Shown here one piece after another: positions 1,634-39,829 of a DNA stretch of 39,829 nt. The first letter of the stretch is position 1, and the number at the start of each line of letters is the position of its first letter. The notes under the pieces are model-generated. The model ran no database searches and was not told the DNA's origin. It saw nothing but the letters and a program-made list of their open reading frames with translations. The translations under genes were made by a program, and so were the position numbers. This stretch comes from Candidatus Burarchaeum sp. (GTDB lineage Archaea; Micrarchaeota; Micrarchaeia; Burarchaeales; Burarchaeaceae). The stretch spans positions 1-39,829 of the forward strand of contig NZ_JAUSNF010000023.1 in the NCBI RefSeq assembly GCF_030646255.1, read 5' to 3'.

Positions 1634-2923
<1,290 letters not shown>

Positions 2924-12459: not shown

Positions 12460-13536
12460 TTATTTTTTCCTTATAGTCTTCCCGCCGCACGCATTCCAGA
12501 ACGGGTCCTCGCGCGGGTGCGCAAGCGGTTTGCCATCGACCTCAACGCCCGCGCCCATCACAACCTCGCCAATGACGCTGGCTGCAATGTGCTTGCGTTC
12601 AAGTGCGCTGATTATTCCATCCGCGCTTTCCTTAGCCGCGCTTATCAACAGTGTGCCTTCGCTTATCGAAACATATGGGTCAATCTGGAACAGCCAGCAC
12701 ATTTTCTCGACTTCAGGCTTCACAATTATATCTTTCTTCCGCACCTTCATGCCAACCTTGCTAACCTCGCTCATCTCGCAGAGCGCGCCATAAACGCCGC
12801 ATTCAGTTGCATCGTGCATTGCATGAACAGCGCTTACACCGACATTACCCTCCGCGCCCTTTGCACCGTGCATCGATTTTCCGCCATCAACACCAAACGC
12901 AGTCAACGCATCCTCGACAACGCTCATCTCGCGTGCAATCTTGTTTGCCTTCTTCGCAAATTCCTCGCCAAAGTGCTCGACAACGGCAGGACGGAAGAAA
13001 TGCGACAAAAGCGCGCTCGCCTCAATCGCAGCGCCCTTTGTCAAAATCAATGCATCGCCAGGCTTCGCGCCCGCAGGCGTGACATACTTGTCGCACACGC
13101 CCATCATCACCGCGCCGCCCACCATGGGGTAGGTGCAGCCCGGATAGCGCGCCGTATGCCCGGACACGACGGAAATTCCAAGCTCCTTGCACGCCTTGTG
13201 CACCCCAGCCCACATCTCCTCGAACTCGGCATCCGTCATTTCGAGCGGCAAATTCAAATCAACGCACAAATAGTCTGGCTTTGCGCCCATGCTCGCCACG
13301 TCGCTTGCCAGTATGTTGACAGCAAACCATGTAGCCAGCTCAAAGCCCAGCTCTTTCGCAACATAGAACGGGTCAGTCTCAACAACAACAAACTTTCCGC
13401 CAATGCGCAGCACCGCACAGTCCACGCCGTTCTGCGGCCCCACAACGACGCCCTTGCCTTCGAAGCCAGCGCCCAGCCTAGGCTTGATGACCCTCTCGAA
13501 AACGTCGGGCGAAATCTTGCCCATTTTAGGCAGCAT
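12460..13536 (-). CDS. AIR synthase (PurM)-like / SelD-HypE-ThiL superfamily protein
   Basis: A 358-residue protein of the PurM-like superfamily, whose members bind ATP and transfer phosphate. Seen: VGPQNGVDCAVLRIGG (N-terminal metal and ATP-binding strand), the DLNLPLEMTD region, VVSGHTARYPG near 145, AGAKPGDALILTKGAAIEA near 185, and HDATECGVYGALCEMSEVSKVGM near 275. It lacks the C-terminal Cys of HypE and is not a clear ThiL or PurM, so the substrate is open. I start it at ATG 13536; earlier in-frame codons lie inside tRNA-Gly. It begins three bases past the tRNA 3' end, so it is probably read from the tRNA transcript. An ATG at 13524 is the alternative. Confidence 0.8.
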   Translation of the reverse strand: MLPKMGKISPDVFERVIKPRLGAGFEGKGVVVGPQNGVDCAVLRIGGKFVVVETDPFYVAKELGFELATWFAVNILASDVASMGAKPDYLCVDLNLPLEMTDAEFEEMWAGVHKACKELGISVVSGHTARYPGCTYPMVGGAVMMGVCDKYVTPAGAKPGDALILTKGAAIEASALLSHFFRPAVVEHFGEEFAKKANKIAREMSVVEDALTAFGVDGGKSMHGAKGAEGNVGVSAVHAMHDATECGVYGALCEMSEVSKVGMKVRKKDIIVKPEVEKMCWLFQIDPYVSISEGTLLISAAKESADGIISALERKHIAASVIGEVVMGAGVEVDGKPLAHPREDPFWNACGGKTIRKK

Positions 13537-13539
13537 GGA

Positions 13540-13652
13540 TGCGGCCGCCGGGATTTGAACCCGGGTTATAGGCTTGGAAGGCTTGCTTATCGGAACCAAG
13601 GTCCGTGAGCCTTAATTCAATTCTAAGTCCTACCAGGCTAGACTACAGCCGC
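13540..13652 (-). tRNA. tRNA-Gly (anticodon TCC) with a 40-base intron at position 29/30
   Basis: Exon 1 is 13652-13623 and exon 2 is 13582-13540. Splicing out 13622-13583 gives a perfect 73-base tRNA: acceptor GCGGCTG/CGGCCGC, D-arm GTCT/GGAC, anticodon stem TAGGC/GCCTA, loop CTTCCAA, T-arm CCGGG/CCCGG, and A73. The splice sites form a bulge-helix-bulge: outer AGG/CCT, central ACTT/AAGC (one A-C mismatch), outer ATTG/CGAT, with three-base bulges AG^A and AA^G. The site inside the 5' anticodon stem is not the usual 37/38. The leader is bracketed by a stem that ends at the base before G1. C35, C36 and A73 agree with glycine identity. Confidence 0.9.
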
Positions 13653-13766: not shown

Positions 13767-15506
13767 TCAAACTTTAATTAGCCTTTGCCTTACTGTTGTT
13801 AGAAAGTCAGTAGGAAACACATGCCCCATTTTTGGTCCTGCAAGAAATTGCCTTGCGCGCCATGATGTCAGCCTCTCAGGAGAAACTAAGGCAGGAACCA
13901 TCTCAACAACCCTCACACCAATTTTTTCAAGTGCATAAGCCTTGTCTGGGTTGTTTGTAATCAACCTCGCCTCTCTTATATTGCAGCAATATCTCAGTAT
14001 TTTTGCTGCATTCTTGTATTCTCGCGAGTCTATCTGCAACCCAAGCGCTTCATACGAATCTACTGTGTCCATTCCGCGTTCCTGTAATGCATAGGCGTTG
14101 GCGTGGTCTACAACACTGACCCCTCGTCCGTCTTGGTGAAGTGCGTAAATAAGCACTCCACCCTCAGTTCCTATTCTCACAAGAGCGTCTTCGAGCTGGG
14201 GACTACAATTGCATTTTTCCGACCTGAATATATGTCCGAAAGTGCATGCTGATTGCATGCGAACAAGCGGCGCATCGCCTTCCCACCTCTTTTGCAGGAC
14301 TATGTACGTCTCGTCGTCTTTCTGGAACGCAGTGCATTCGAATTCCAGCGTTCCGCATTTCGTTTCGACAGGCAGTTTGAAAGTTTCGCTAATCCTATGA
14401 CTTTTTTCCTTATCAAGCGCCCCATATCTCGCCAGCATCTCCGGCCAGCCCCCCGAGGCATGGGGTTCGGCTAGCCAAACAGGCCGCTGACCGAATAGCA
14501 GGAGTTCATCGCAGAGGTACGGTTCCCGGAGTTCTTCGAAACTGGTTTGCGCTTCCTGGGCCATGCGTATGGTGAAAACGGCCCTGCACACGCCGGTGAA
14601 GTCATCTTTCTCGATTTCCCTGACCCATTCCTCATGGCCTGGGGCGCCCCAAAAGCGGCGCATATATTCGTTTGTTGGAATGATGCTTGGAGAGAATGCA
14701 TGCTCGACGTGAATTCCGAGCTTCGTGTGGCCGAAGGCGGACTGCAGCAGTTCCACGACGTGAATTCGTCCCTCCTCGCGCACGAATGAGTTGGAAATTA
14801 TCTGGAGCCTGCCGTCTGGTTTGAGGCGGGACTGCGCACCCGGAAGGAATTTTCGCAGGGCACCCAGACCATCACTACCTGCCGCCCCGTGAAGGAACCA
14901 TGAGCTGGGGCTCGGAACTGCTATGAACGGTGGGTTCGTTACAATCAGGTCATATTTCTCGTTTCCTAGATTTGCAAACATGTCTGACTTCACAAACCTT
15001 ATGCGCCCCTGAACACCGTTGAGTGCGGCGTTGAATTTCGCAAAGTCGAGTGCGCGGCTGTTGATGTCGACTGCCGTGGCTTCCGCGCCTTTCGAAGCGC
15101 ACACGATTGCCTGTATGCCTGAACCAGTCCCTATGTCCAAAACATCATCGCCTTCCTTCACCTCCAACCTGCGTGCGAGGAAGTCGCTCTCGTCGAGAAA
15201 AATCGGGTATACCCTGTCTGGGCGGTTTGCGGTAAAACGGTCAGTTGCTATGAATACGCCGTCATTTTCCCACAGCCGGCATTCGGTTTCGTAATGGCTC
15301 TCCGGCCTGGTTTTGGTTATCATACCAACGGCCAGAAGAGGTTCTGCGACTTCGGGGGGAAGTTTAGCAGCCGCTTCGGCCCTGAAGATATCTAGATATG
15401 CCTTCCTGTCGCCTTCAAGAAGAGCCGCGAGGGCCGCCCGTGCAGAGGCACCCTGTTTGCCGGTTACGTTTTCAAACACGCTATTACCGGTAGTACTGTA
15501 TGACAT
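13767..15506 (-). CDS. Fusion: class I methyltransferase plus GTP cyclohydrolase II-like domain
   Basis: A 579-residue two-domain protein. Residues about 85-330 form a SAM-dependent methyltransferase with VLDIGTGSG (122-130), acidic AVDIN (145-149) and NPPF (191-194), the motif of PrmC/HemK-type enzymes that methylate glutamine or planar nitrogens. Residues about 375-545 are RibA-like: zinc cysteines 421, 432 and 434, catalytic Tyr472 (AYALQ) and Arg495 (DSREY), and LITNNP. RibA opens GTP to start riboflavin synthesis. The usual SECLTGD has become SACTFGH, so the substrate may differ. I see no frameshift and the linker reads through. It diverges from the TrmB regulator. A possible role is making a methylated pterin, deazapurine or flavin-like molecule (inference). 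Confidence 0.85.
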   Translation of the reverse strand: MSYSTTGNSVFENVTGKQGASARAALAALLEGDRKAYLDIFRAEAAAKLPPEVAEPLLAVGMITKTRPESHYETECRLWENDGVFIATDRFTANRPDRVYPIFLDESDFLARRLEVKEGDDVLDIGTGSGIQAIVCASKGAEATAVDINSRALDFAKFNAALNGVQGRIRFVKSDMFANLGNEKYDLIVTNPPFIAVPSPSSWFLHGAAGSDGLGALRKFLPGAQSRLKPDGRLQIISNSFVREEGRIHVVELLQSAFGHTKLGIHVEHAFSPSIIPTNEYMRRFWGAPGHEEWVREIEKDDFTGVCRAVFTIRMAQEAQTSFEELREPYLCDELLLFGQRPVWLAEPHASGGWPEMLARYGALDKEKSHRISETFKLPVETKCGTLEFECTAFQKDDETYIVLQKRWEGDAPLVRMQSACTFGHIFRSEKCNCSPQLEDALVRIGTEGGVLIYALHQDGRGVSVVDHANAYALQERGMDTVDSYEALGLQIDSREYKNAAKILRYCCNIREARLITNNPDKAYALEKIGVRVVEMVPALVSPERLTSWRARQFLAGPKMGHVFPTDFLTTVRQRLIKV

Positions 15507-16351: not shown

Positions 16352-17386
16352 TCATCTTTTCTTCTTCTCCTTGTAATATTCCACCATTTCCCGTATGCCC
16401 CTGTCTATCGGCTTCCGGGGCTCCCAGCCCAGCTCCATGCGCGCCTTGTCAGTATCGAATGAGCGGTCCACGTACAGGACTTCAATATATTCAGGTATGA
16501 GCTTGGACTTCTTGCCAGCCATCTTCTCAATGGCATTCAGCATATTCAGCGAGAGCGTGAGGAAGCGGGGCGAGGCGTGCAGCTTCGGCTGCGGCACGCC
16601 CAGGTAATCGCACGCGAGGTCGAGCGCCTGCCTCTGCGTTATGCGCTCACCCACTATATTGTAAGTCTCGCCCATTGCCACGTATTTCTCGCCCGCGAGC
16701 AGGAATGCGTTCACAACGTCGCCCACATACACGAAAGGTATGTTGTTGTCAGCAGAGCCCACGTACGAGAGCCGCCTCTTCTCGAGCATTTTCAAAAGCG
16801 GCAAATAGGCCTCGTCAAAGCCAGGCCCGTAAACCATGCCGAGCCTGAGAATCACAAATGGCACAGCGCCGTGCCTCACTGCATTCTCGCCCGCGCGCTT
16901 GCTCGCGCCATAGTCATCGGTAGGCGCCAACTCATCGCTTTCCTTCAGCGGCCTTCCCCTCTCAACTTTGCCATAGACTGCAATGCTTGAAGCGTATACA
17001 AACCGTTTGACATTCGCATGCGCGGCCTCTGTCACCATGTTCGCAGTCCCGCGGCCGTTGACTGCCTGCAGCACGTCGCGGCCCGCCTTGTAGTTTATGC
17101 TCGCTGCAAGGTGGAAGACAACATCCACCTTCTCGCAGCAGCCCTTCAAAGAGTCCGGGTCCGTAATATTTCCAAATGCAACTTCAACGCCAGAGGGCAG
17201 CTTCTCTGCGCCCGCGGAATCGCGCACAAGCGCGCGCACGACATAGCCTTTCTGCAGGAGCTTCTCAACGAGCAGCCCGCCCACCCTGCCGCTGGCGCCA
17301 GTCACGAGCGCGCGCTTTTTCGACGTAATCGCTATAATCGAAACCATCTTCGTCTTTTTCCTGCCTTTCTTCTGAGTTTTTTTCAT
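16352..17386 (-). CDS. NAD-dependent epimerase/dehydratase (extended SDR)
   Basis: A Rossmann-fold extended short-chain dehydrogenase of about 344 residues. Seen: the NAD-binding motif VTGASGRVGGLL near residues 27-38, VFHLAASINYKAG near 90, YASSIAVYG near 130, the catalytic YxxxK as YGASK near 160, and LRLGMVYGPG near 182. Such enzymes work on nucleotide sugars or sterol-like substrates; the exact one cannot be told. The basic N-terminus before Met-Val-Ser is odd. AGGT upstream fits ATG 17386 best (17392 and 17347 are alternatives). The gene follows the hydrolase gene with no gap and is co-transcribed. Confidence 0.9.
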   Translation of the reverse strand: MKKTQKKGRKKTKMVSIIAITSKKRALVTGASGRVGGLLVEKLLQKGYVVRALVRDSAGAEKLPSGVEVAFGNITDPDSLKGCCEKVDVVFHLAASINYKAGRDVLQAVNGRGTANMVTEAAHANVKRFVYASSIAVYGKVERGRPLKESDELAPTDDYGASKRAGENAVRHGAVPFVILRLGMVYGPGFDEAYLPLLKMLEKRRLSYVGSADNNIPFVYVGDVVNAFLLAGEKYVAMGETYNIVGERITQRQALDLACDYLGVPQPKLHASPRFLTLSLNMLNAIEKMAGKKSKLIPEYIEVLYVDRSFDTDKARMELGWEPRKPIDRGIREMVEYYKEKKKR

Positions 17387-17392
17387 CTTCAT

Positions 17393-37432: not shown

Positions 37433-38470
37433 TCAGGTTCCGAGCCTTATCAAATTCCCTACTCTCTCGTTTCCAACAACGTAGTCATAAAGCTGCTGTA
37501 CATTACTCCAAATATCCCTTACTCCATTGCTGATTCGCTGGCGACTATCCTCTAAAATATCAATAGTTATCGGTCTTGCTCCTCCTCTTTTCAAAGTGAC
37601 CGGAACCCCGAAACTAACGTCAAGGACTTCACCAGCATAATGCTTCTGAAAAACCATGGGCGGAACAAGGGAGCAGCATTCGATCTTCGATTCAGTATCT
37701 TGAAGCAGCAACTCTATCATGCGGGTAATATGTGTAGCCGGTGCAAAATCAGCGCATTTGCGCACTCTTATGATTCTTGGAACAATCTCCCCCATTTCCT
37801 TCCTTATTTTTTCAATTGCTCTTGAGCTTAATACCGGAATATCTGGCGGCAGTTCAAGCCTTTCGAAAAGAGGTGTAAGGCCAGCACCATGCTGTCCAAG
37901 AACAAAGGCGTTTTTTACATCGCTAGGAACCAATGGCACGCCCAGCGCCCTCCGAAGATAATCAACCACCGTATGCCTGAATCTCGCAGAATCAAGCATC
38001 CCCCCAAGGCCGATGACATTGTTCGCGGGTAAGCCCAGCTCCCTGCTAAAATACGTGTTCAAAACATCAACAGGATTCGTCACCGTTATGAATATTTCCG
38101 TCCCTTTAAGCGACAGCCCCTTTCTGACATCTGCCGCGATAGAACCATTCTCCCTGAGCAGATCCTCGCGCGTTTCATGAGGTTTTATTGTCCTCCCTGC
38201 AGAATATACGATAATATCGCATCCTGCTGCACTATCGACCACTGTGGAATGTTTCAAACGCGTTGATATGCTGCCGTCATTCGAGTGATGTATCTCTTCA
38301 GCAGCACAGGCTACTTTTTCTTCATTCCGTCCAATAAGAATAATGTCCTCCACAAGCTCTTTTTTACCCAGTTTATTGTAGACTTGAAAAGCGACATTAC
38401 TCCCTATCGTGCCCACGCCGATGATAGCTACTCTCGCACCGTCTTTCCTTTGGCTGGCTGGTTGAGTCAT
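37433..38470 (-). CDS. Malate/lactate dehydrogenase-family protein
   Basis: An NAD(P)-dependent 2-hydroxyacid dehydrogenase of 345 residues. Seen: the Rossmann motif IIGVGTIGSNVAFQV near residues 15-29, VTNPVDVLNTY near 130, GLGGMLDSARFRHTVVDYL near 153-171, and VLGQHGAGLTPLF near 190 with the catalytic histidine. The substrate-loop arginines are present near 85-95 (RTIKPHETREDLLREN). Malate and lactate enzymes cannot be told apart by eye here. It follows ybaK by 5 bases. The whole cluster 37433-39829 is A/T-richer than the rest of the window. Confidence 0.88.
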   Translation of the reverse strand: MTQPASQRKDGARVAIIGVGTIGSNVAFQVYNKLGKKELVEDIILIGRNEEKVACAAEEIHHSNDGSISTRLKHSTVVDSAAGCDIIVYSAGRTIKPHETREDLLRENGSIAADVRKGLSLKGTEIFITVTNPVDVLNTYFSRELGLPANNVIGLGGMLDSARFRHTVVDYLRRALGVPLVPSDVKNAFVLGQHGAGLTPLFERLELPPDIPVLSSRAIEKIRKEMGEIVPRIIRVRKCADFAPATHITRMIELLLQDTESKIECCSLVPPMVFQKHYAGEVLDVSFGVPVTLKRGGARPITIDILEDSRQRISNGVRDIWSNVQQLYDYVVGNERVGNLIRLGT

Positions 38471-38475
38471 AAAAC

Positions 38476-38991
38476 CTACTCGCGAATATCTGCAATAATA
38501 AACTCAGTTTTTTGTATTTCTTTTATTACGCGCGATATTTCAGGCGGAGTTATCTCCAATACGCATTCCGTTGTCCCTCCGCCTCCATACAGCGAGGATT
38601 GCTTTGCTAGCTCGTCATCCATCACTACCGTCAGTTTTGCATCATGGGCTATTGGCGGGGTGCCGCCGCGGGGATAGCCGCTGAGTTTCTCCGCAGTTTT
38701 CTGATCTGCGATCACTATCTTTTTATAACCGGTTATTCTCTGCAGTTTTTTTATCGAAAGTCGGTGTACTCCAGAAACCATAACCAGCAACGCGTTATCG
38801 GTCCTGTATTTTTCATCCACAACTGGAACACAGACCAGCGCCTTTATCATCTGGTCGGGCTCCACATTGTACCCAAGGCGCTTCAAAACTTCATGGGCCT
38901 TCAAAGTTTCCTGTGTGCTTGGCTTTTCCAATAGCTTGCACTGCACATTGTTGCTCTCTATAAACCTCTTGATTTTATTCATGGTGTTCAC
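38476..38991 (-). CDS. YbaK/ProX-type aminoacyl-tRNA deacylase
   Basis: A 171-residue editing-domain protein that removes wrongly attached amino acids from tRNA (the family acts on Cys-, Ala- or Ser-tRNA). Seen: CKLLEKPSTQ near the start, KALVCVPVVDEKY near 50, LVMVSGVHRLSIKKLQRITGYKK near 68-90 (in sense), and the signature SGYPRGGTPPIAH near 104-116. Length is usual. Its ATG overlaps the stop of the aminotransferase by four bases and the dehydrogenase follows after 5 bases, so the three are one operon. The reason for that grouping is not known. Confidence 0.92.
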   Translation of the reverse strand: MNTMNKIKRFIESNNVQCKLLEKPSTQETLKAHEVLKRLGYNVEPDQMIKALVCVPVVDEKYRTDNALLVMVSGVHRLSIKKLQRITGYKKIVIADQKTAEKLSGYPRGGTPPIAHDAKLTVVMDDELAKQSSLYGGGGTTECVLEITPPEISRVIKEIQKTEFIIADIRE

Positions 38992-39829
38992 CCCTGATTT
39001 TTCAGCATCTTCGCTAATCTTCTCACCCCCTCAGCTATCATCCCAGGATTTTCCACTAGCGGCGCATAGGACAAACGCAATGAACCCCTCAATGTTTCTC
39101 CGAAAGCGCTTCCAGGAACAACTGCCGTCCTTTCCTGTTCGGAAAGCTTGCTAGCAAAATCCACGTCGCTTTCAATGCCGTAACTGGCAATTTTTAGGAT
39201 GGTGTAGAAACCGCTATTAGGAACAAGCAACGTGGGCATTGTAAGTTCTTTTCTAAGCGCCCCCACCATTACTTCACTAGCTTTCTGATATTTTTGCCTG
39301 TTTCCTTGGAAATATTCCTCAAGCTCTTGTGTCGTGCTTTGCTCGAAGAATTTCAGTAGCGCTAGCTGGACTAAAGTAACTGGAGAAAGATTTCGCGCTC
39401 CCTCAATATGTTCTAGCTGTGCAATAACATCTTCGCGTGCAATCACGTATGCCGCACGAAGACCCAGCAGCGAGAAGTCTTTCGAGAATGAATGAATGGT
39501 GATCAAATTCTCATAATCTCTGAAGCTTAGTTTGTAGTAGTCTGGTCTTTCTGCAAAGTATATGCTCCGATACGAGAGATCCATCACAAACCAAGTTTTG
39601 TGTTTTAGTGATATTTTGCACATTTTTTCAACAACATCCGAAGGCCAAACTTGGCTTGTCGGGTTGTCAGGCGTGGCTATCACTATGAGTCGTGGTTTTG
39701 TAATCTCGATTGTCCGCTCAAAATCTTTCAAAAATCTTTCAGAGTCTGTTGCTGGTATGAACTTCAGTTTTTCATCAATTACTGGAACGTATTTTATTTC
39801 CACATCTCGGCATTCAATAGTTGCCTGGG
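38988..39829 (-). CDS. PLP-dependent aminotransferase, class I/II (N-terminus beyond window)
   Basis: The reading frame is open to the window edge, so about 280 C-terminal residues are seen. Features of fold-type I aminotransferases: VIATPDNPTSQVW (the NPT segment), FVMDLSYRSIYF (the Asp that contacts PLP), TIHSFSKDFSLLGLRAAYVIA (the catalytic Lys in SFSKD), and LRGSLRLSYAPL near the end (the substrate-carboxylate Arg). The amino acid used cannot be told. It heads an operon with YbaK and the dehydrogenase. Base composition is A/T-rich compared with the rest of the window. Confidence 0.88.
   Translation of the reverse strand, partial: QATIECRDVEIKYVPVIDEKLKFIPATDSERFLKDFERTIEITKPRLIVIATPDNPTSQVWPSDVVEKMCKISLKHKTWFVMDLSYRSIYFAERPDYYKLSFRDYENLITIHSFSKDFSLLGLRAAYVIAREDVIAQLEHIEGARNLSPVTLVQLALLKFFEQSTTQELEEYFQGNRQKYQKASEVMVGALRKELTMPTLLVPNSGFYTILKIASYGIESDVDFASKLSEQERTAVVPGSAFGETLRGSLRLSYAPLVENPGMIAEGVRRLAKMLKNQG

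Follow-up and report, generated by a model that had tools for sequence, protein, structure and literature searches.

A methyltransferase and a GTP cyclohydrolase II-like domain in one frame

What would a protein do in which a methyltransferase is joined to a domain of the GTP cyclohydrolase II (GCHII) kind? GCHII normally catalyses the committed step of vitamin B2 synthesis, in which RibA turns GTP into the riboflavin precursor, formate and pyrophosphate. The question is raised by a gene of Candidatus Burarchaeum sp. in the window analysed here, which is the whole stretch of 39,829 nucleotides from contig NZ_JAUSNF010000023.1.

The gene is a single open frame of 579 codons with an ATG start and without an internal stop, and the features of the locus are listed in Table 1. 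Two Pfam families were matched within it, namely PF05175 (MTS methyltransferase, aa 107–260, E 3.9e-22) and PF00925 (GTP_cyclohydro2, aa 379–538, profile 7–165 of 165, E 3.4e-39), the latter scoring 134.5 bits against a Pfam gathering score of 23.3 bits, which places the domain within the superfamily. This bears out the original prediction that an NPPF methyltransferase and a RibA-type domain with intact zinc and catalytic residues share one frame. No Pfam family was matched by aa 1–105, even at E 10. The linker (aa 301–375) has GC values of 0.64/0.45/0.61 by codon position, close to those of the domains on either side, and therefore has the look of coding sequence. Two full-length Pfam domains sharing one frame are far beyond chance, and together with the coding linker they make this a genuine methyltransferase–GCHII fusion in this assembly.

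The GC3 of the fusion gene is 0.54, against about 0.68 in the other genes of the window, and it declines along the gene, with values near 0.6 in the methyltransferase, about 0.4–0.5 in the RibA part and about 0.4 towards the 3′ end. Three genes at the right end of the window (37433–39803) have GC3 values of 0.43–0.52, against about 0.68 elsewhere. The two halves of the protein were modelled separately because domains were misplaced when partial homologues were aligned globally with the full-length protein.

Table 1. Positions in the window of the fusion gene, its parts and its neighbours
Feature	Position	Strand	Remarks
Fusion gene, 579 aa	13767..15506	-	One open frame, two Pfam domains
N-terminal helical region, aa 1–105	15192..15506	-	Helices at aa 20–60 in the model, modest confidence
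Class I SAM methyltransferase core, aa 107–260 (VLDIGTGSG, D147, NPPF)	14727..15188	-	PF05175
Coding linker, aa 301–375	14382..14606	-	Codon-position GC resembles neighbouring domains
GCHII-like domain, aa 379–538	13893..14372	-	Pfam, residues, fold match to 4rl4 and 2bz0
Divergent TrmB-family HTH regulator, 257 aa	15563..16336	+	PF01978, E 3.4e-16
Conserved flanking gene, synthase-like (named by eye), outside the system	12460..13599	-	70–86% identity in G002, G001
Conserved flanking NAD-dependent epimerase-like gene (named by eye), outside the system	16352..17392	-	57% identity in G002

Catalytic residues and altered pocket of the GCHII half

The GCHII half was aligned with 33 ordinary RibAs, among which 29 positions are invariant within E. 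coli residues 42–176 (E. coli RibA numbering is used throughout). The zinc and catalytic residues C54, C65, C67, Y105, D126 and R128 are all kept, the three zinc cysteines and the D126/R128 pair that mark the superfamily thus being present, and the phosphate-side residues R49, R94, T149 and K154 are retained as well. Seven of the 29 invariant positions are nevertheless changed in the fusion (H51Q, T56F, E92D, G97S, K101H, A117S and N118Y), whereas in a leave-one-out comparison each of the 33 ordinary RibAs changes at most two.

The three-cysteine zinc motif reads SACTFGH followed by KCNC. The SACTFGH segment, which had been taken beforehand as a hint of a different nucleotide substrate, proved truly unusual, carrying H51Q, E53A, T56F and D58H, and it fits a changed substrate; position 58 is D or E in ordinary RibAs, and D66 is replaced by N. 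The stretches 49–53 and 92–94, which presumably contact GTP according to the annotation of E. coli RibA, H51, E53 and E92 among them, are unlike that enzyme in H51Q, E53A and E92D, with E53 being variable in ordinary RibAs too. The fusion scores under the curated RibA cut-offs (TIGR00505, 129.8 vs 205.85 bits; NF001591, 140.4 vs 148 bits) and is therefore not recognised as a RibA equivalog. Its predicted structure, with a mean pLDDT of 68 for this half, has the fold of GCHII from H. pylori (4rl4) and E. coli (2bz0). On these residues the domain looks neofunctionalised, with the ring-opening chemistry apparently retained and the usual base pocket apparently lost.

RibA-like proteins adjoining SLATT genes

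A Rhizobium plasmid protein named GTP cyclohydrolase II (WP_260305932) has Q51, A53, D92 and Y118 in common with the fusion, and its nearest plasmid relative is a protein of Eleftheria terrae (WP_301260963, 54% identity). Three of the seven changes of the fusion (H51Q, E92D and N118Y), plus E53A, recur exactly in both bacterial proteins, which thus carry the same pocket signature. Both are preceded by a SLATT_1/DUF4231 gene, which overlaps the RibA-like gene by 17 bp in Eleftheria and is separated from it by an IS66 element in Rhizobium; the Rhizobium gene scores above both Pfam cut-offs and the Eleftheria gene slightly below both. SLATT_1 is described in Pfam as a SMODS- and SLOG-associating 2TM effector. 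These loci (L093:8947-12594 in Rhizobium and L094:11520-12636 in Eleftheria) form a possible undescribed two-gene system, and E. coli genomes have no DNA-level match to the Eleftheria pair.

The fusion might accordingly belong to a RibA-like subfamily that makes a nucleotide-derived conflict or stress signal, as the bacterial pairing with SLATT would suggest, and of which the archaeal protein would make a methylated version. The four identical substitutions, the SLATT_1/DUF4231 gene ahead of both bacterial proteins and the grouping of the three proteins in the tree from all columns (97/80) argue for this. We consider it possible but unlikely, since masking the columns of the shared motif lowers that support to 84/0, with the fusion on a long branch, and common ancestry and convergence are both possible. 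Moreover, no SLATT_1 match was found in the 84%-complete source genome at E 10, so no partner gene of that family was detected there, the neighbours of the fusion include none recognisable as defence genes, and Y105, kept in the fusion, is M or L in both SLATT-linked proteins.

Riboflavin synthesis in the source genome and RibA in the phylum

The source genome (1.21 Mb, 84% complete, 61 contigs) carries adjacent genes for RibB, RibC (a riboflavin synthase of the archaeal type), RibH, a standard RibA and RibD on another contig, C48, and every one of these products reaches the cut-off of one or more curated NCBIfam models. The RibA of this operon clears both models that the fusion misses (TIGR00505, 218.3 bits; NF001591, 243.4 bits). 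A check of the riboflavin genes, proposed at the outset, showed the operon to be complete, and GCHIII, the archaeal alternative, was not found in the genome by a search that was positive in three archaeal controls. A complete riboflavin operon with a normal RibA and no detected GCHIII makes the fusion unneeded for riboflavin, as a second and diverged copy. The earlier view that RibA is uncommon in archaea did not hold here, because a RibA-like match was detected in 57 of the 156 host-phylum genomes of at least 85% completeness. RibA is common in the host phylum.

The fusion could still be a redundant GCHII that feeds riboflavin synthesis, with the methyltransferase incidental, and the full retention of zinc and catalytic residues is what such an enzyme would have. 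This is improbable, given that the operon already holds a normal RibA, that seven normally invariant positions are altered and that all relatives do without the fusion. Nor did the fusion turn out to be a known RibA type with a proven role in riboflavin synthesis, an outcome named beforehand as refuting the original prediction.

Other divergent RibA-like proteins were observed. One genome of the same class (G082:C3, L079:104-1747, minus strand) has another divergent RibA-like domain in one 548-aa frame with orotidine 5′-phosphate decarboxylase (PF00215). Another (G046:C7, L074:770-1525 and 1688-2581, plus strand) has two tandem, strongly diverged RibA-like genes with H51D and Y105L, a type found in several genomes of the class. 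A further RibA-like group (L073, L075, L076, L077, L078 and L080), with R94 changed to A or G and with D126E, forms a clade of its own (100/100) and, judged by these residues, probably lacks normal GCHII chemistry.

The methyltransferase half

With its SAM motif, acidic residue and NPPF at aa 191–194, the N-terminal half has the marks of a class I methyltransferase of the NPPF/Y type. It scores below the cut-offs for HemK2/MTQ2 (TIGR00537, 82.6 vs 87 bits), PrmC (TIGR03534, 74.7 vs 199.1 bits) and NF011529 (102.9 vs 162). Sequence and fold searches returned AerE, a peptide N-methyltransferase, GenN, a gentamicin methyltransferase, and many others, the AerE alignment extending past the methyltransferase core to aa 299. 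The structural model of the methyltransferase half has low confidence, with a mean pLDDT of 51. From these sequence matches and weak fold matches we infer that it N-methylates a small molecule or a peptide. An identity with mad2 of the MADS defence system, suggested by PADLOC, was rejected, as only profile positions 265–432 of 492 were matched, which is the generic methyltransferase core.

RNA modification had been named before as one possible role, and the protein might act mainly on RNA, a protein or a ribosomal target while its GCHII-like domain only senses a nucleotide. The core is indeed also similar to HemK2/MTQ2-like families, as the NF011529 score illustrates, but it stays under the HemK2, PrmC and NF011529 cut-offs, and a whole zinc and catalytic set is not expected in a pure sensor. 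The nearest architectures, AerE and GenN, have a peptide or small-molecule substrate and make RNA the less likely target. We regard this role, too, as improbable.

Neighbourhood, distribution and origin

The gene of the TrmB-family regulator starts 56 bp from the fusion on the opposite strand. It is divergent, as had been predicted, with a best match of 37% identity within the genus and no close ortholog there. TrmB-family paralogs are numerous per genome in G008, with around ten, and in other genomes of the order. In G002, a genome of the same family and another genus, the two flanking genes lie 270 bp apart with nothing between them, whereas in the source genome they are separated by 2.75 kb that hold the fusion and its regulator gene. 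G001, which belongs to the genus of the source genome, has a contig end here. Together, fusion and regulator look like a recently gained accessory islet, with loss in G002 as the alternative, and the lower GC3 of the fusion fits acquisition weakly. The surroundings of the fusion show no other recognisable genes of biosynthesis.

The same fusion was looked for widely, as the original prediction had proposed, and was absent from the other 300 genomes examined in the phylum (301 with the source; 60 relatives were also searched). It was likewise not found in plasmid and phage collections or in viral contigs, the latter searched by protein and by motif, nor in 101 genomes of a Clostridia-type phylum, searched without a positive control, nor in genome_contigs with a single-protein query that reaches close relatives only. 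The genome_contigs matches covered the methyltransferase core only, and the two that were inspected over their whole length resemble PrmC and have an N-terminal part of unrelated sequence. No description of a methyltransferase–GCHII fusion was found in the literature searched, and the fusion is known from one genome assembly. That an assembly or sequencing error joined two genes is highly improbable: the single, fragmented assembly and the GC3 drop between the halves would fit it, but the 579 codons are open across a linker of coding composition, and it would need a diverged RibA found nowhere else in the phylum.

Proposed function

The reading that we prefer, with chances that we hold to be about even, is that the fusion is an accessory bifunctional enzyme, predicted from its residues to recognise the base of a purine nucleotide in an altered way, to open the ring of that nucleotide and to N-methylate the substrate or the product. 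The kept zinc site, arginine nucleophile and phosphate-binding residues suggest that the GCHII-type domain still opens the imidazole ring, while the changed base-recognition residues would make the substrate or the extent of the reaction differ from the conversion of GTP to the riboflavin precursor. The NPPF N-methyltransferase would probably methylate, SAM-dependently, an amino nitrogen or a ring nitrogen, either in the substrate or in the ring-opened product, and either step could come first. The arrangement of the genes suggests that the divergent TrmB-type regulator controls the fusion.

Pterin and deazapurine pathways begin with GTP cyclohydrolase I, in which C8 is kept, while the GCHII type expels C8; a pterin or deazapurine product, as suggested earlier, is therefore rather unlikely. 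The zinc-dependent ring opening would probably pass through a nucleotidyl intermediate on R128, as is known for GCHII (PMC10366380). A GCHII homologue and N-methyltransferases act in one pathway in pseudoiodinine synthesis (psdD, psdA and psdF; PMC9911603), and the same two enzyme kinds occur in the toxoflavin pathway, as cited in that paper, which makes a methylated pyrimidine product plausible.

The searches found no relative carrying this fusion, so no conservation stands behind the pairing of the two domains in a joint function. The wider proposal, that the product of the fusion is a novel methylated signal or metabolite with a ring-opened purine nucleotide at its base and that the cyclohydrolase half comes from a RibA-like subfamily, hitherto undescribed, which works with SLATT membrane effectors in bacteria, appears doubtful. 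With a methyltransferase, an altered base pocket and preserved ring-opening residues all in one chain, the protein points to a nucleotide-derived product that has gone unrecognised, and this in an organism whose genome is 1.2 Mb in size. The pocket held in common with SLATT-adjacent RibA-likes suggests that the genes annotated for riboflavin synthesis include some whose enzymes in fact make signals or modified nucleotides, and residues 51, 92 and 118 could serve as marks for sorting out such misannotated RibA-likes.

Comparison with known systems

The structures 7ej3 and 7eev, which bear the entry name GTP cyclohydrolase II and which we take to be UTP cyclohydrolases, have a GCHII-like sequence with a Y aligned at N118, as in the fusion, but they keep H51 and E92 and are very distant (E 0.003). 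AerE (7rc2) and GenN (5u4t) share the class I methyltransferase core, with the AerE alignment including NPPF and running past the core, but they are only about 18–24% identical, have no GCHII domain and act on a peptide and an aminoglycoside, respectively, according to their PDB titles. The pseudoiodinine and toxoflavin clusters combine both enzyme kinds in one pathway (PMC9911603), although as separate genes, in bacteria and with extra pathway genes of which none were recognised beside the fusion.

The SLATT-linked RibA-likes share R-x-QSAC, DGRG with D92, and Y118 with the fusion; unlike it, they have no methyltransferase, adjoin SLATT_1/DUF4231, have M or L at Y105 and keep T56 and G97. From RibA itself (E. 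coli 2bz0, H. pylori 4rl4) the fusion differs at the seven changed positions, in its attached methyltransferase and in scoring under the RibA cut-offs, whereas the whole domain, its fold, the three-cysteine zinc site, D126, R128, R94 and K154 are common to both.
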